A DNA stretch of 64,000 nt from Larkinella terrae (GTDB taxonomy: Bacteria > Bacteroidota > Bacteroidia > Cytophagales > Spirosomataceae): NCBI RefSeq assembly GCF_009668025.1, contig NZ_WJXZ01000014.1, positions 1,459,097 through 1,523,096 on the forward strand, read 5' to 3'. This document shows, one piece after another, positions 2,760-52,515 of this stretch. The notes under the pieces are model-generated. The model was not told the origin of the DNA. It was given only the letters and a program-made list of their open reading frames with translations, and ran no database searches. How positions within the stretch are numbered: the stretch's first letter is position 1; each line of letters opens with the position of its first letter. The translations under genes were made by a program, and so were the position numbers.

Positions 2760-4006
2760 ATTCGATGAAGCATCCAACATTGTTGGTAAACATAAAGCAA
2801 AAGCTAGTTAGTAAGTTTTAGCATTTTTTTAAATCTAATATGAGCTTAGGCTCAATTAAAGAATGAATTAATGTCTTAGATAATAAATCATTTGCAAAGA
2901 GCTTAGCGGTGTAAACATTTTTTAAAGACTCAATTTTTGAATCTTTAAATTTAATAATATTTCCATGAGCAATATCACTTCTTAAGCTATACAGTTTTTC
3001 TATAAAAGTTTTGATTGGGGTTTCAGGGTTGTCAAAATACTTTTTTAAATCTATAGACTGGCTAAATCTATTATTTAATAAATGAATTTTAGCTGGAAGT
3101 TGTCTAGATATTGGATTACCCCTTCCATTCGTATCCTCAGTTAAAAGAAACTCAAATATAGACATAAATTCTAGGAACTTATATTGAGATTGGTTCGGAG
3201 TTTTGGAAGTATTGTAGTAGTTATAAATTGCCATTTTAATTAATTGATAACTTTCTCTTGAATTTGACATAAGGTCTTTTAGTCTTTTGTAAGAATCTCC
3301 AATGCCTTGCAACATACTCAAGGTTATTTCTATATTATATTTCATGATATCCAGCGATAAGAACTCATAATAACTTGCTAATACTAAGGGGTCAAAGTCA
3401 AAAAAAGGATTAGATATTTCTGAGCTTGTAAAACTAAATTCAGGTCCCATTAATAAGTTGTTATACAAATGACAACAAACTCTTAAGTCAAAACGCTGAT
3501 CCAAATCCTTAATGTTTCTACTTGCTATAATATAATAATTCCAATTCTGGTTGTCTAATTCTTTGCCAAATCTAAAAGGATTCTCATTGTATTGATTAAG
3601 GGTAAATGATATTTCATGGAAAGCAATATACTGTTTAAAATAAGCGGTGTGTTCTATTAATTTCTCTTTTATTACATGAACTTGTTTTTCACTTGCACGT
3701 TCCAAATAATAATTTTCTGTAATTAAGAATGGAAGTTTTATGTCACTACTAATCCTGTAGGCATTTAATAAAAAAATAAAATCGTTTATTTCGACTGTTT
3801 CCATTGTTTGTTTTAGTTTGAATATTTTTCCTTAAAATGTGTTACTATTTTTGCTACTGTGAAATGTCTATTATTTTTAGTTTTTAAAGGGCTTATTACA
3901 CATAAAAAGAGAGTATAGTCTTAATGAAACTTGTAATTATATGAAATTTTGATGAATATAAAATTACTATTTGAAACATTCATCATTTTGAAACATTTAT
4001 CATTCT
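2760..4006. other. AT-rich island beside tRNA-Ser (probable horizontal acquisition)
   Basis: From just past the tRNA terminator to the next gene the sequence is visibly AT-rich, with many TTTAA, TATAT and AATAAT runs, unlike both neighbours. It contains one gene (the HEPN protein) and flanking non-coding DNA, and I see no copy in it of the AAAACCG word that occurs about three times per kb around it. No duplicated tRNA 3' end, integrase or inverted-repeat ends were found, so the route of entry is not shown. Confidence 0.65.
2818..3804 (-). CDS. Apea-like HEPN domain protein
   Basis: 328 residues, cytosolic, no signal peptide. The C-terminal third carries a HEPN signature: SLRSDIAHGN supplies the R-x4-H pair (Arg275, His280) typical of HEPN RNases, preceded by an EFMSIFEFLLTE helix near residue 212-223 as in Apea-type HEPN. 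The N-terminal ~200 residues are not recognised. HEPN proteins of this group are often RNases in defence or toxin systems, but no partner gene, reverse transcriptase or antitoxin is adjacent, so a defence role is inference. Codon and base use are much more AT-rich than the neighbours, suggesting transfer. Confidence 0.75.
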   Translation of the reverse strand: METVEINDFIFLLNAYRISSDIKLPFLITENYYLERASEKQVHVIKEKLIEHTAYFKQYIAFHEISFTLNQYNENPFRFGKELDNQNWNYYIIASRNIKDLDQRFDLRVCCHLYNNLLMGPEFSFTSSEISNPFFDFDPLVLASYYEFLSLDIMKYNIEITLSMLQGIGDSYKRLKDLMSNSRESYQLIKMAIYNYYNTSKTPNQSQYKFLEFMSIFEFLLTEDTNGRGNPISRQLPAKIHLLNNRFSQSIDLKKYFDNPETPIKTFIEKLYSLRSDIAHGNIIKFKDSKIESLKNVYTAKLFANDLLSKTLIHSLIEPKLILDLKKC

Positions 4007-46996: not shown

Positions 46997-48019
46997 TTAA
47001 CGTTCCGGACCGGTTCGACGGGTCGATGGCCCGGTGCCACGCTGCAGTTCTTTCAGGTCAAAATCAAACGGCAATTCGTTCATGCATTTGAAATGACCCA
47101 GCGGACACCGATCGTAGCCTATTTTAGAACAAGGGCGGCAGGGCAACAGTTTGTTTTCGAGCAAAACAAAATTGGTTTTGTACGGATACATGCCCAGTTG
47201 CGGAGTCGTATTGCCCCAGATGGAGTAGATTTTTTTCTTCAAAGCCGCAGCGATGTGCATTAGTCCGGTGTCGTGGCTGAAAACCAGCGCAGACTGTTGC
47301 AGAATCGATGCCGACTGGTTGAGGTTGTATTTCCCGCAAGCGTTGTAAATCAGCTTATCTCCCAGCGCCTGCCGGACTTCCTCGCCCGCCTTAACATCTT
47401 CCTTACCACCCAGGAGAATGACAGGATAGTTGATTTTTTGACACAACTCGATCATCCGGTCAACGGGTAATTTTTTGGTATTATGTTGACCACCAATGGC
47501 GTAAGCGATAAAACCGCGACGATGAGTTGTCGGAAGCCACTCTGGTTCGACGATGTCTTTGTACGGGATGAAGTAATCCAGCCCTTTGTCATCATTGATG
47601 ACCCCAAACGGTTCGACGGTTTTCATATACCGGTCGACGATGTGCAGAGGAGGCATGGAATTGATCTTGAACCGAACGTAGAGCCACTTTTCCCAGTTCA
47701 GTTTGTCGAAACTCCGTGAACGAACGGCCAATCGGAGCTTGATCAGCATCGTGCGGAGGTTGTTGTGCAAATCAATGATGTAGTCGTAGCGCTCGGTTTT
47801 CAATTGAGCGATGAGGTCATTCAGGCTTTCATCCAGAAAAAAACCTTTGTCAATGTAGGGATTCGATTCAATGAGGGACTGGTAGGATCGCTTCGTACAG
47901 TAATGAATTTCCGCTCCCGGAACCTGTTGTTTCAGGCACCGAATAACCGGCGTCGTGAGTACGATATCGCCAATGGACGAAAACCGGATAATCAGGAACT
48001 TGACAGGAGTGGTATGCAT
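46997..48019 (-). CDS. Glycosyltransferase family 9 (heptosyltransferase-like)
   Basis: 340 residues from MHTTPVKFLIIRFSSIGD (ATG 48019). GT-B fold of lipopolysaccharide heptosyltransferases: N-terminal RFSSIGDIVLTTPVIRCLK, central DYIIDLHNNLRT, and C-terminal GGKEDVKAGEEV and SHDTGLMHIAAALKKKIYSIWG with the ADP-sugar-binding Asp/Gly/His. Cytosolic face of the inner membrane, likely adding a core sugar. A four-Cys stretch LPCRPCSKIGYDRCPLGHFKC near the C-terminus could bind metal. 12 bp upstream of aguB on the same strand. Confidence 0.93.
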   Translation of the reverse strand: MHTTPVKFLIIRFSSIGDIVLTTPVIRCLKQQVPGAEIHYCTKRSYQSLIESNPYIDKGFFLDESLNDLIAQLKTERYDYIIDLHNNLRTMLIKLRLAVRSRSFDKLNWEKWLYVRFKINSMPPLHIVDRYMKTVEPFGVINDDKGLDYFIPYKDIVEPEWLPTTHRRGFIAYAIGGQHNTKKLPVDRMIELCQKINYPVILLGGKEDVKAGEEVRQALGDKLIYNACGKYNLNQSASILQQSALVFSHDTGLMHIAAALKKKIYSIWGNTTPQLGMYPYKTNFVLLENKLLPCRPCSKIGYDRCPLGHFKCMNELPFDFDLKELQRGTGPSTRRTGPER

Positions 48020-48108
48020 CTGATACCAAAAGTACAATAAGGCCGGGATTTTTTGAAAGAATCCCCCAAAACCTACGGAATTGACGCGCTATAAATGATT
48101 TGACGGCC

Positions 48109-48222
48109 CACCCTGTCAGCGGTCGCAGACCCTGACAGCGGTGGAAAGCCATTATTTGCGGAGCTTTATTATATAACTCCAGAACTTCACCGCTGTCAGG
48201 GTCTGCGACCGCTGACAGGGTG
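48109..48222. repeat. REP pair (BIME-like), left copy
   Basis: Each 35-bp REP starts CACCCTGTCAGCGG and ends CCTGACAGCGGTG. Within it CTGTCAG pairs with CTGACAG and GGTC-GCA-GACC forms an inner hairpin. The second REP is the exact reverse complement of the first across a 44-bp spacer. It also carries the transposase stop codon (TGA at 48196-48198). Confidence 0.9.
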
Positions 48223-48822
48223 CGTAAACAATTCCTCAACGTTTTCCTGAAGCATATCCTGATGAAATTGAATGTATTCCGTTTTACCGCCAAACCAATT
48301 TAAGACATCGTCCCGCTTCAGCAACGTCGGGAGGTTTGACAGATGGCTTTGGTAGGAGGAATGGGCATAGGATGTCAAATCTTTCGTGACTCCGTGGTTG
48401 ACCGGATTGCAGTGAATATAGAAAATAAGCCTGGTGAAGTAAGAATCATCGCTCACAACTTTCCGCTGGAAGGGGCGTTCAAATAAACCGCCGGTTCGCT
48501 GAACTTGCGAATTGAAATACTGCGCGTAACTGTTGAAAAAATGAGAAAATTGACGACTGACATTGGGTGGTTTTCTCCAACCCCGTTCAACAAATAGCCG
48601 CTCCTGATCAAGTTCATGATTTTCCTTCACCCGAATCATCAGGTGGAAATGGTTTTTCATGAGGCAATAAGCATACGTATCAATGACGGGCGCCAGGTAA
48701 TTCGCGTATTGGTGCAGAAAAAAACGATAGTGATTTGGATCGACAAATATCGGAGCACCATTGATTCCTCGGTTATAAATATGGTAGTAGCGGCCCGGTT
48801 CGAGCGGTTCGATTGGTTCCAT
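48196..48822 (-). CDS. REP-associated tyrosine transposase (RAYT, Y1/HUH family)
   Basis: 208 residues from MEPIEPLEPGRYYHIYNRG (ATG 48822; a TTG at 48855 is an alternative). HUH motif NHFHLMIRV near residue 56-64, catalytic Tyr in DSYFTRLIFYIHCNPVNHG near residue 126-144, and YHIYNRG at the start put it in the IS200/IS605-related RAYT group, which act on single-stranded REP hairpins. The last residues HPVSGRRP are read from within the REP sequence, which tightly couples gene and element. Confidence 0.93.
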   Translation of the reverse strand: MEPIEPLEPGRYYHIYNRGINGAPIFVDPNHYRFFLHQYANYLAPVIDTYAYCLMKNHFHLMIRVKENHELDQERLFVERGWRKPPNVSRQFSHFFNSYAQYFNSQVQRTGGLFERPFQRKVVSDDSYFTRLIFYIHCNPVNHGVTKDLTSYAHSSYQSHLSNLPTLLKRDDVLNWFGGKTEYIQFHQDMLQENVEELFTHPVSGRRP

Positions 48823-48872
48823 CTGTTTTCGATTTAACCGTTTAGACGAAAACAACCGAAAAAGTCATCAGA

Positions 48873-48986
48873 CACCCTGTCAGCGGTCGCAGACCCTGAC
48901 AGCGGTGAGGGGTTGGAATTATTTAGTAGTGCTCTGCAAATGAGAGCTTTCCACCGCTGTCAGGGTCTGCGACCGCTGACAGGGTG
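48873..48986. repeat. REP pair (BIME-like), right copy
   Basis: Two 35-bp REPs, 48873-48907 and 48952-48986, inverted to each other around a 44-bp spacer; same length and REP sequence as the left copy. The spacer, read in reverse complement, matches the left one at many positions, including GGTGGAAAGC and ATTTGC.GAGC. Confidence 0.9.
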
Positions 48987-48987
48987 G

Positions 48988-50082
48988 TTACTGATCCCAG
49001 AAGCGGGGTTTGTTGGGAGTGCGGTTTAGGCTGTTGATGCAGGGAAGACAGGCCGCCAGGTTATCCAACTGAATAACTTTTCCGTTGGGAACGCCGACCG
49101 CATCCTTCGACCGGTCTACTTTCAGGGGCAGGACACTTACGCCGGCGGCACCGAAATAACCGTAAATCACCTCGTCCGGATTACTGGTGCATTTCATGTT
49201 CCCACCAACGGTCGCCGGGGCCGAATCGAACAATCCGCCCGTGTTGGTGACCAATTTCTGGACGCTGCTGAAAAACCGGTAAGCACCCGGACTGATGGAT
49301 TGCTGCTCCACTTCCAGGTAGTAAACACTCCGAGAGGTGAAAGGCACACTCATGATGTATTGCCTACTGATCGATTTTCCATTGATGGCAGCATCCGAAC
49401 GGATGTTGATGCAGTTGCTGTAACATTGATTAATGTCCCAACAGGCTGTACAACAGGGAATTCCGGTGTAGAACCCGTCGGCATTGAGACCGGGGCTTAT
49501 CTGACAGGCGGGTGTCATTTCGTAGTTTTTCCAGATCCAGCGGTAATAATCACCGGTCGTTTCCGGGTCTTTGGTATCCAGGTAAACCTCCCAGTTGTTG
49601 CGTAAATCATTGCTGAACGGGGCCGGATTATACGTGTATTCGTAAGTCAGCCGGGTGATCGGAGGAGCGGCTTTGAGCAGTTCCAGCGAAGATTCGTACT
49701 GTTTTCCGGCGGAGGTTCGGATCAGGAGTTTATAGGAACGACCTACGGTGCCGCGAATTCCGTTGGTAGCGGTTTGGTAAGAGCCCGGGAGCACCTCTTT
49801 CAAAACTTCCTGATTGCCCAGATTATCCGTAATCGTCACGGTTGCTCCGGTAACCAGTAAATTCAAGCCTGAGTAAGTATAGTCGGCAGTTTGGGTCAAA
49901 TTGACGACATACGGCCCGGGTTGATCGGTAATCATCCCTTCGACCACCACGGCCCGACCGATCGACTGGGTGTCGGGCTGGTAGGGAGTCAGGCAGGAAC
50001 TGACGAGACCTAAAGTGAGGAAAATCAGCAAATTGGCGCCAAGAAATGGTAAAAGCCGGTGGCTGTATTTTATACTTTTCAT
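48988..50082 (-). CDS. DUF4249 lipoprotein, partner of a TonB receptor
   Basis: 364 residues with a lipoprotein signal (LVSSC, Cys30). Typical DUF4249 sequence: IGRAVVVEGMITDQPGPYVVNLTQTADY, LLVTGATVTITDNLGN and a Cys-rich stretch GIPCCTACWDINQCYSNC near 212-229. Family members follow TonB-dependent receptors and are thought to be their surface or periplasmic partners. The gene ends immediately after the RAYT/REP element, which may have cost it its original 3' flank. Confidence 0.92.
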   Translation of the reverse strand: MKSIKYSHRLLPFLGANLLIFLTLGLVSSCLTPYQPDTQSIGRAVVVEGMITDQPGPYVVNLTQTADYTYSGLNLLVTGATVTITDNLGNQEVLKEVLPGSYQTATNGIRGTVGRSYKLLIRTSAGKQYESSLELLKAAPPITRLTYEYTYNPAPFSNDLRNNWEVYLDTKDPETTGDYYRWIWKNYEMTPACQISPGLNADGFYTGIPCCTACWDINQCYSNCINIRSDAAINGKSISRQYIMSVPFTSRSVYYLEVEQQSISPGAYRFFSSVQKLVTNTGGLFDSAPATVGGNMKCTSNPDEVIYGYFGAAGVSVLPLKVDRSKDAVGVPNGKVIQLDNLAACLPCINSLNRTPNKPRFWDQ

Positions 50083-50097
50083 ACGCGAGGATCGGAA

Positions 50098-52515
50098 TCA
50101 GAACTTGAAATTGTACGTCAGCGACGGGAAGGCCGAGCCGAAAACCGACAGTTTGTAACCATCCGTCAGGGAGGCTGAATTGAGCTTGAAAAACACCGAA
50201 TAAGCATTTTTTCGGGCGTAGACGTTGTAAATCGAGAAGACCCAGCTTCGTTCATACCGCCGTTTTTTCGCCGGGTCACTCCTGACTGGATCCTGATTGA
50301 ATTCGACCGCAAAATCAAGGCGGTGGTAATCGGGAATCCGCTGCTGGTTGCGGTTGATATAAATCGGAACAATAATGCCGTTGATGCGCGCCCGGGCGTA
50401 GGGCTGCGTTACGGGGCGGCCCGTGCTAAAGGTAAAGTTAAACGACATATTTACCCGGTTGTTGGGCCGAAAAGTCGTCATTGCATTGAGTGTGTGCGGT
50501 TTATCAAAATTGGCCGGATATTGCCTGCCGTTATTCACCCGTTCTTCCGGATAAGCCCCGTTGATCGTGTACAACGCCCGCGAATACGTATAACTGACCC
50601 AGCCAATCCAGCGACCTTTGTTTTTCTTCAATTGCGTTTCCAGCCCATACGCCTTGCCGCTGCCCTGCAGCAAGTCGGTTTCGGGCGTCGGATTCAGGGT
50701 CAGATTGGCGCCATCTTTGTAATCGATCGCGTTTAGAATGGTCTTGTAATACACCTCTGCGGAAGCTTCGATGGCATTTCCGGCCGTATTTTTGAAATAG
50801 CCCACCGACCACTGGTCCGCAATTTGCGGTTTGATGAACGAATCGCTCAGTTTCCAGCGGGAGATGGGCAGCGCAGCCGTCGTATTCGTGATCTGGTGAA
50901 TATATTGCCGCAGGCGGTTGTACCCCGCTTTGATCGACTGACCTTCCCCCACCGTCCAGCGTACCGCCAGCCGGGGCTCAATGCCACCGTCCTGGTGGTA
51001 AATATGCCCTTTGTTGTAAGTAGTTGACGATGTGGTGGTTTCAGGTTGAAGTGGAGCGCCCTCCTGGTAAATAGGCACGGTAGCGGGTCCGCGGTTCAGG
51101 AACTGGGAGTAGCGAAAACCGCCCAGAATGGAAACCGCTTCGTTCACTTTCCACTCATCCTGGACATAAACCGCCAGCTCATACGCTCGTTCGATGGGCA
51201 GGGTTTTCGCCAGCACATTCGACTGAAAACCGGGGACCAATTTGTTGGGCTGGAGGTAATAATCGATCAGGCTAAAACCGCCCTGCAACTGGTGATTTTC
51301 CGATGCGTCAAAACTCAGATCCGCTTTGAGCTGGCGGTGCAGAATTTCCGACGTAAGCCGAAACGCATTGGCAGAATCAGGAGCGGAGGTTTCGGGGCGG
51401 TATTGGCTGTAAATGGCCGTCGTTGTCAGGTTCAGCTGGTTGTTGATCGCGTAATTCCATTTCAGCGTACCGTTCAGGGTACGGTATTCGAATAGGGTAG
51501 AGGAAGCATTGACTTCCACGGTCGACAGCGAATCGGAAGCCAACTTGAACGCATCGTGACTGTTGTAACCCGTAAACGTAACCGTATGCTTTTCATTGGG
51601 TTGAAACTTCAGTTTAGTGGTTACGTCGTAAAAGTTGGCTTTCGTGTCCCGAATGTTTCGCGGCAGTAGTTTGAACAGAAAGTCATTGAACGAGGCCCGT
51701 CCGGCGAGCAGAAAGGAAAGTTTTTTGTTCAGAATTGGACCTTCGATACCCAACCGGCTGGCCACCACGCCAATGCCGCCGTTCACGCTGATTTTCTCCG
51801 TTTCCGGCTCTTTCACCCGAATGTCCAGCACCGAAGCAGCCCGCCCTCCCATACTCGGCGCAATACCGCCCCGGTTCAGCGTTACATCGCGAACAATATC
51901 GGGGTTGAAAACCGAGAAAAAACCCATCAGGTGGCTGGAATTGAAGATGGGAGCGTCGTCCATCAATACCAGATTCTGATCGGTGCTGCCGCCCCGGACG
52001 TTGATGCCCGGTGCTCCCTCGCCGACGGTCGTTACGCCCGGCAATAACAACAGACTCCGCACCACATCGGCCTCGCCCATAAACGCCGGAATGCGTTTGA
52101 TGGTTTTGATCGTCATTTGCGTAACGCCCAGTTCCACTTTTTTAACGTTGCGGTCGGGGGCTTCGGTCGTTACGGTGACCTCTTCCAGGTCTTTGGAGTC
52201 ATCCTGAAGCAGGATTTCCGTCAAAACCGTTTTGTTGAGTGTAATAGCGTGGGTCTGTGAATGAAACCCCACGTGGGTGAATTTAACGTTATAAGTTCCG
52301 GCGGGAAGCGAAATGACGAAAAAACCGTCGCGGCTGGTTGTGGTTCCCCGGCGGTTTTCGGTAATAAAAACCGTCACCCCCTGAATGGGCTGTTTGGTGG
52401 TGGCGTCGCGAATATAACCGGTTAACGAATGATTGAATTTTTCGGGTTTAGTCTGGCCCGCCCCCAAATAGGGAATCAGCCAACTACACACCAGGGTGAA
52501 GTAGAAAAATCTCAT
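50098..52515 (-). CDS. TonB-dependent receptor with carboxypeptidase-regulatory domain
   Basis: 805 residues. Signal peptide (LGAGQ), CarboxypepD_reg-like domain near 30-110 (LTGYIRDATTKQPIQGVTVF, GTYNVKFTHVGFHSQTHAI), plug around 120-220 (EADVVRSLLLLPGVTTVGEG, INVRGGSTDQNLVLMDDAPIFN), then the barrel ending FPSLTYNFKF. The DUF4249 gene begins 15 bp downstream of its stop, the usual pair. The ligand is unknown; iron or peptide uptake are common in this pairing but not supported by sequence. Confidence 0.94.
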   Translation of the reverse strand: MRFFYFTLVCSWLIPYLGAGQTKPEKFNHSLTGYIRDATTKQPIQGVTVFITENRRGTTTSRDGFFVISLPAGTYNVKFTHVGFHSQTHAITLNKTVLTEILLQDDSKDLEEVTVTTEAPDRNVKKVELGVTQMTIKTIKRIPAFMGEADVVRSLLLLPGVTTVGEGAPGINVRGGSTDQNLVLMDDAPIFNSSHLMGFFSVFNPDIVRDVTLNRGGIAPSMGGRAASVLDIRVKEPETEKISVNGGIGVVASRLGIEGPILNKKLSFLLAGRASFNDFLFKLLPRNIRDTKANFYDVTTKLKFQPNEKHTVTFTGYNSHDAFKLASDSLSTVEVNASSTLFEYRTLNGTLKWNYAINNQLNLTTTAIYSQYRPETSAPDSANAFRLTSEILHRQLKADLSFDASENHQLQGGFSLIDYYLQPNKLVPGFQSNVLAKTLPIERAYELAVYVQDEWKVNEAVSILGGFRYSQFLNRGPATVPIYQEGAPLQPETTTSSTTYNKGHIYHQDGGIEPRLAVRWTVGEGQSIKAGYNRLRQYIHQITNTTAALPISRWKLSDSFIKPQIADQWSVGYFKNTAGNAIEASAEVYYKTILNAIDYKDGANLTLNPTPETDLLQGSGKAYGLETQLKKNKGRWIGWVSYTYSRALYTINGAYPEERVNNGRQYPANFDKPHTLNAMTTFRPNNRVNMSFNFTFSTGRPVTQPYARARINGIIVPIYINRNQQRIPDYHRLDFAVEFNQDPVRSDPAKKRRYERSWVFSIYNVYARKNAYSVFFKLNSASLTDGYKLSVFGSAFPSLTYNFKF

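Follow-up and report, generated by a model that had tools for sequence, protein, structure and literature searches.

The window analysed here is a stretch of 64,000 nucleotides (G000:C6:1459097-1523096) from a Larkinella (phylum Bacteroidota) genome of 7.85 Mb, called G000 below. At window positions 48109-48986 it carries a single gene for a REP-associated tyrosine transposase (RAYT), placed between two 114-bp units of opposite orientation, each of which is an inverted pair of 35-bp REPs. No base differs among the four REPs. The features of the locus, in window positions, are as follows.

46997 to 48019, minus strand: glycosyltransferase family 9 gene (PF01075), downstream neighbour of RAYT in four species
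48109 to 48143, plus strand: REP 1, 35 bp, on the glycosyltransferase side
48144 to 48187, no strand: left REP-pair spacer, 44 nt, inverted relative of the right spacer (31/44)
48188 to 48222, minus strand: REP 2, 35 bp, overlapping the RAYT 3' end and providing its stop codon
48196 to 48822, minus strand: RAYT gene, 208 aa, with the HUH motif H58-F59-H60 and with Y135 in YIHCNP
48873 to 48907, plus strand: REP 3, 35 bp, upstream of the RAYT start
48908 to 48951, no strand: right REP-pair spacer, 44 nt
48952 to 48986, minus strand: REP 4, 35 bp, 1 base from the stop codon of the DUF4249 gene
48988 to 50082, minus strand: DUF4249 gene (PF14054), upstream neighbour of RAYT in four species

The first-pass annotation had described four identical REPs in two inverted units around the transposase gene, and this arrangement is confirmed by the coordinates and by the 89% complementarity of 48108-48222 with 48873-48987 over 115 nt. 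The REP core pattern was found in the window four times exactly and once with three mismatches, and the mean of shuffled sequences was 0.38 (up to three mismatches). A scan of 47000-50200 with Rfam gave no match at the gathering threshold. The RAYT ORF starts with ATG at 48822 on the minus strand and stops with TGA at 48196-48198. Translation is unlikely to begin at the TTG of 48855, because three orthologs start with MEEIEP at ATG. As was noticed earlier, the last eight residues (HPVSGRRP) and the stop codon are encoded by the REP at 48188-48222.

The earlier assignment of the gene product to the Y1/HUH transposases is upheld by profile and structure comparison. RAYT scored 51.5 bits with NCBIfam NF047646 (REP_Tyr_transpos, cut-off 80) and 14.4 bits with Pfam Y1_Tnp (cut-off 23), both below the cut-off, and PHROGs had no match for it. 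A profile of six RAYT members reached 4er8, the E. coli RAYT, at 1e-4, and a profile of 39 rows reached it at 2e-6. When the AlphaFold model (pLDDT 91.2, pTM 0.87) was compared by Foldseek, 4er8, which is E. coli RAYT with REP hairpin, came first (E 1.4e-8; TM 0.72 relative to the target) and the ISDra2 and IS608 transposases came next; the structural alignment with 4er8 had 14% identity. Among 39 aligned sequences H60 was invariant, and H58 and Y135 were conserved in at least 90%. The tyrosine of the YIxxNP motif (Y135) aligned with residue 115 of 4er8, and the catalytic mutant of the E. coli enzyme is given as Y115F (PMC8266576). Because of this alignment Y135 is taken as the catalytic tyrosine, and H58, H60 and Y135 are expected to form the active site. 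The protein has NHFH, FQ where WQ was expected, and YIHCNP in G000 (YIHNNP in three orthologs), and judged by these motifs it would be nearest to RAYT group 4, or TnpAREP subclass 2.4.

Relatives of RAYT at 73-75% identity were present in Larkinella humicola, L. punicea and L. sp. C7. Further relatives belonged to many phyla, and we used the best 80 of 155, some of them at loci with short flanks. Where they differ in length, the difference falls after the HUH motif and before the long helix that comes next. In 49 of these best 80 the ORF had a hairpin on either side or the two flanks had a 13-mer in common, and in 31 of the 80 a flank 13-mer recurred at nt 150-330 of the ORF; both are crude counts with no chance control. 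We inspected 45 of the 80 loci, and many of their repeats were built like the Larkinella REP, with two quasi-palindromic half-sites. Eight relatives at 42-50% identity (L076, L078, L089, L084, L092, L122, L126 and L150) came from contigs assigned to Geobacteraceae, Chloroflexi and Methylobacter, mostly metagenome bins. It means either wide transfer or contamination of the bins.

The 35-mer REP folds as (((((((((((.((((...))))))))))).)))) with -11.9 kcal/mol as DNA, and equally good folds were obtained in 2 of 200 shuffles on the folded strand and 0 of 200 on the other strand. Its stem of 4-7-4 bp has two bulges, each a single C, and closes with a GCA triloop. The internal symmetry proposed at first therefore holds as a hairpin with a GCA loop, but not as a perfect one, on account of the two bulged C. 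The whole 114-nt unit forms a single long hairpin (z = -14.3). In 83 aligned REPs of G000 (64 distinct), 95% of the cells were paired and the covariation of the hairpin was 0.242 against 0.104 in shuffles (0/500 as high), with at most 0.044 when the partner was slid; pair counts and pair-type counts alone gave no excess over shuffles in the same 83 REPs. It means that compensatory changes maintain the REP hairpin. The bulged C was retained in 82 of 83 5' arms and 81 of 83 3' feet. Neither a GT[AG]G nor a CGTC tag was present at the feet of these REPs, because the feet are mostly RCC and GGY.

The REP is dispersed and not bound to this locus, so the condition named at the outset as refuting the first-pass annotation, a REP confined to this one place, does not hold. 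With at most three mismatches to the 35-mer there were 28 copies in G000 and none in the reversed control, and a 26-base pattern raised the number to 82, a looser pattern to 101. Chance or local tandem duplication as the origin of the REP is ruled out by these dispersed copies. In general 60-80% of the REPs follow the stop codon of an ORF of 100 codons or more at a distance of no more than 60 nt, compared with 9-15% of random places; in G000 it was 50 of 83, compared with 15% for random places at the same loci. The 114-bp unit did not turn out to be dispersed in the same way. Its spacer was common to only the two window units (100% and 89%), and other inverted REP pairs matched the 114-mer at 72-76%, owing to their REPs (40 of 70 first-look candidates were scored). 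G000 has 25 inverted core pairs not more than 150 nt apart, with spacers of 26-143 nt from core to core.

Other arrangements of REPs were also observed. An array of five REPs lies at G000:C6:901676-901994 (L340, L006), with four in tandem at a period of 71 bp (REP and 36-nt spacer) and the fifth inverted at the end of the array, where an ORF stop falls inside this last REP. In a second pair geometry, besides head-to-head, two REPs stand tail to tail and their 26-nt cores are about 13 nt apart (L011, L015, L016, L035).

We compared nine Larkinella genomes (G000-G008). G000 has one intact RAYT copy, and RAYT occupies the same chromosomal place in four of the nine genomes (G000, G002, G005 and G008). 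In G002, G005 and G008 DUF4249 and glycosyltransferase family 9 enclose the ortholog, which has REPs at either side and a tail reading THPVSG(R/H)RP before the stop codon. The search for empty sites, suggested with the first description of the locus, gave three genomes with both neighbours and no RAYT: G006 and G004, and also G007, where the upstream gene ends differently and by eye looks like a member of the same family. In G001 and G003 no end of DUF4249 was found within 1,500 nt upstream. Since G006 is sister to G000 in a single-gene tree of the glycosyltransferase (95/99), loss of RAYT in G006 would be the simplest explanation. Its RAYT-less site holds one palindrome of another REP family. 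This second REP-like motif, CTGWCAGCGCCGGGCC, had 1 to 16 matches (at most one mismatch) per genome in the nine genomes, with 0 in the reversed control except 1 in G003 and 2 in G007, and a related stretch is fused with a REP in L256.

The dN/dS of RAYT among the three sister orthologs (G002, G005, G008) was 0.18-0.25, compared with 0.06-0.10 for the neighbour gene, which indicates purifying selection on RAYT, though with less constraint than on its neighbour. Between G000 and the sisters the synonymous sites of RAYT were saturated (pS 0.77-0.79), while only 2-3 positions differed in the last 30 nt, so the statement that REPs stay nearly constant while their surroundings drift is borne out. 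The place of the RAYT gene is thereby shown to be fixed, and the gene is probably inherited vertically.

Genomes with intact RAYT had 101 (G000), 66 (G002), 76 (G005) and 29 (G008) REPs, and the five genomes without it had 1, 0, 4 (G004), 16 (G006) and 0. High REP numbers are thus confined to genomes with intact RAYT, which represent two lineages and not four, because G002, G005 and G008 form one clade in the glycosyltransferase tree. That only two lineages carry it, and that G006 has 16 REPs without it, are points against the reading that RAYT spreads REPs.

A second kind of RAYT (type B) was also seen. In G000 it lies at G000:C17:156236-156825 (L030, L031) and is interrupted by stops, and open copies exist in G004 and G002 beside a gene which we take to be S24/LexA-like. 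The type B copy of G007 is open, though both the initial His of HUH and the tyrosine of YIxxNP are gone, and nothing in G007 matches the REP pattern. In Larkinella knui (L081, about 3602-3682) perfect inverted arms of 35 nt with a short loop directly follow the stop codon of RAYT-B. Perhaps it is the same growth of arms as described below, at a different REP family.

The REP-coded tail was examined as a possible device of RAYT itself and rejected, since several host genes also end in a REP-coded PVSGRRP and stop, and tail residues 201-208 have pLDDT below 50 in the model and are disordered. In a first set, an ORF of 100 codons or more ended inside the 35-mer at 7 of 83 sites in G000, 11 of 53 in G002, 7 of 31 in G005 and 1 of 4 in G008. 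With more sites the counts were 7/83, 12/58, 16/71 and 7/20, respectively, and those of G000 are at chance level, because random places gave 8-11%. The tail is a general effect of REPs at gene ends. Both REPs that supply stop codons to flanking ORFs and REPs that overlap RAYT 3' ends ("3'ov") have been reported (PMC3733652).

The two spacers of the window locus (48144-48187 and 48908-48951) match in inverted register at 31 of 44 positions without indels. None of 20,000 shuffles reached this agreement (best 23), which agrees with the first reading of the spacers as diverged inverted copies. When orthologous loci were compared, again 0 of 1,000 shuffles were as good for the window locus, and the inverted symmetry gave p = 0.29 in G002, 0.035 in G005 (weak) and 0.44 in G008. 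Significant symmetry is therefore confined to G000, with G005 weak at most. Homology of the G000 upstream spacer with those of the sisters was suspected by eye and found no support on comparison. The symmetric spacers would fit a recent inverted copying of one REP pair to the opposite side, and the symmetry of the cassette is local, probably recent and not a sign of a mobile unit.

A different kind of symmetry was found around REPs of the sister species G002, G005 and G008, where palindromic arms (score at least 12) enclose 32 of the 149 REPs examined. By genome it was 12/58 in G002, 17/71 in G005, 3/20 in G008, 1/83 in G000, 0/13 in G006 and 0/3 in G004, and pairing the arms of different loci as control gave 4 of 5,701 over the six genomes. 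At a score of at least 8 there were 14, 20, 4, 2, 1 and 1, respectively, and 22 in the controls. The count covered 58 of 66 REPs in G002, 71 of 76 in G005, 20 of 29 in G008, 13 of 16 in G006, 3 of 4 in G004, and 83 in G000 (82 or 101 by pattern), with some REPs dropped by the pairing filter or by de-duplication. The RAYT locus accounts for every armed REP of G008 (three), for three in G002 and for another three in G005, and in these three species the 3' end of the DUF4249 gene is copied into REP arms. Arms measure 12-31 nt from the 26-nt core, including 3-4 nt of REP foot, and 28 of the 32 sister arms have 19-28 nt. At 13 inspected sites the outer arm was adjacent host DNA copied in reverse, often a coding 3' end. 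A single REP of a pair can carry arms alone.

Orthologous sites show what was added. At a gene which we take to be PQQ-like, the coding end is common to seven orthologs, and REP and inverted copy are present only in G005 and G002; both the copy and the whole REP are absent in G000, G004, G006, G007 and G008, with a short REP-like piece remaining in G006 and G008. Of eight candidate pairs of orthologous REPs, armed in one genome and unarmed in the other, six are used here (L330/L006, L328/L168, L200/L272, L323/L283, and L207 and L230 with L281); L203/L223 was left out as an artefact of register, and L344/L331 because its flanks match weakly.

Sixteen orthologous arm comparisons were laid out, and the seven between G002 and G005 were summed by hand; in two of the nine others (third REP of L064) a deletion shifts both arms and makes the counts meaningless. 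In the seven, with 136 positions, 11 differences were coordinated, 10 were one-sided and 3 were of other kinds, and about one coordinated change would be expected by chance from the 18 and 20 differing positions per side. Nine of the 11 were at the RAYT locus and two at L207/L230, and the shared arms of L195/L326 had no coordinated change. It means that shared arms partly co-diverge. Among nine orthologous REP-pair spacers of G002 and G005, two were inverted (L180/L322, L186/L321), six direct and one ambiguous. The bulged C was lost in 15 of 33 armed and 29 of 116 unarmed REPs (p = 0.031; the arm threshold differs from that of the count at score 12), an association too weak for a strong link between arms and bulge loss, although a switch that rewrites the stem should remove the bulge. 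Searches of one open-access collection gave no paper linking REPs with template switching or inverted duplication of flanks, and none on Larkinella palindromes. The host-derived arms of the sister species are the new part of this work and worth following.

How could such arms arise? If RAYT nicks at a REP, the 3' end might fold back, copy the flank (snap-back) and be rejoined, so that arms would be scars of its reaction. The PQQ-like gene of G005 and G002, where each flank of one insertion is inversely copied inside the REP pair (by eye), looks as two-end fold-back predicts, and REPs armed at score 12 or more occur only in RAYT-bearing genomes, the RAYT-less sample being 16 REPs. However, lone armed REPs within pairs also occur, and RAYT alone is insufficient to drive arm growth, because G000 with intact RAYT has one armed REP in 83. 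We regard such scars as a rather unlikely origin of the arms.

Selection alone might also be considered, with REP hairpins and arms kept as terminators or stabilisers of mRNA 3' ends by compensatory point mutations, without RAYT or template switching. The clustering of REPs behind gene ends and the covariation in both core and arms are in its favour. Point mutation would, however, hardly make arms that repeat the adjacent, often coding sequence in inverted form and that are absent where the orthologous site has no REP or an unarmed one; two of nine spacers are inverted between G002 and G005, and REP number tracks RAYT. Selection as the sole cause thus seems improbable to us, though a long hairpin that serves as terminator or mRNA stabiliser might be selected for, which would be another way of keeping arms paired. 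The symmetric cassette of the first-pass annotation, if taken as a mobile 880-bp element of RAYT and two inverted REP pairs with 114-bp terminal inverted repeats, has in its favour the equal and exact inverted ends around a single transposase gene, but is very improbable and already largely refuted by the single intact copy in G000, by the spacer shared only between the two window units, by the one ancestral place in four species despite saturated synonymous divergence, and by the absent or weak spacer symmetry of three relatives.

We consider it probable that the locus is a vertically inherited REPtron in which RAYT spreads REPs, and that the symmetry of the locus, the arms and the spacer inversions were made by later template switching. 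By analogy with the E. coli enzyme, RAYT would bind, nick and rejoin single-stranded REP hairpins and carry REPs to new sites, and the RAYT gene itself would stay. Afterwards, template switching of replication at REP hairpins would rewrite one side from the other, which may give identical REPs, drifting spacers and inverted spacer copies at the window locus, and in the sisters a reverse copy of about 20 nt of adjacent host DNA on the far side of the REP. Template switching is described as creating and repairing hairpins (PMC8794818), with inverted copies, stem repair and spacer inversion (PMC8794818; PMC8604942). It appears the best account of arms and spacer inversions, and the polymerase mechanism is inferred. 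RAYT as its trigger is our hypothesis. DNA-protein crosslinks or covalent complexes are reported to stimulate template switching in E. coli (PMC6357072), RAYTs are reported to form a covalent 5'-phosphotyrosine complex (PMC8266576), and we infer that the two could be linked. A further and doubtful extension is that a RAYT nick or covalent adduct at a REP provokes fold-back synthesis or template switching with reverse copying of about 20 nt of host DNA; REPs would then seed host-derived palindromes, perfected again and again, at gene ends, and RAYT, as a domesticated enzyme, would amount to a mutator that builds palindromes at gene 3' ends.

The locus belongs to a known kind, the REPtron. Though a cassette this symmetric in Bacteroidota had been thought to deserve description, RAYTs of Bacteroidetes flanked by REPs or atypical hairpins are described in PMC6006769, and the 3' overlap in PMC3733652. 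As PMC6006769 presents it, TnpAREP subclass 2.4 (RAYT group 4; Cyanobacteria, Bacteroidetes and others) has the motifs NH[IFV]H, WQ and YIxNNP. NHFH in RAYT, YIHNNP in the three orthologs, the variable stretch between HUH and Y among the relatives and the hairpins that flank many homologs are matched with it, but RAYT has FQ for WQ, and no GT[AG]G foot, single or double, is present on the Larkinella REP. For this subclass REPs inserted in frame between HuH and Y are also reported (PMC6006769), whereas RAYT of the window locus has no internal REP and has one at its 3' end instead. The E. coli TnpAREP and REPtron (4er8, PMC8266576) are alike in fold, in the bulged REP and in the YIxxNP tyrosine at residue 115, but differ in the low identity given above and in the GTAG tag, which the Larkinella REP does not have. 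REPINs of Pseudomonas (PMC3116915) share the inverted REP pair with a less conserved spacer and one hairpin, and a dependence on RAYT was proposed for them as for Larkinella; unlike them, Larkinella has widely varying spacer lengths and no single conserved unit.

Hairpins made by template switching (PMC8794818), including E. coli quasipalindromes (PMC6357072), are alike in complementary arms and in inverted copies that one step may make, but those of Larkinella are centred on REPs, with about 20 nt of host sequence, and occur at many sites within a single clade. Exact symmetry and compensatory changes next to REPs should not be taken as proof of transposition or of RNA function. Growth of REPs, their homogenisation and the inversion of spacers can be read directly from Larkinella sequence, the growth because the same site occurs with and without a host-derived arm. 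The abstract of PMC3733652 closes with the question whether new REPs still form, and the Larkinella arms may bear on the origin, spread and perfection of REPs.
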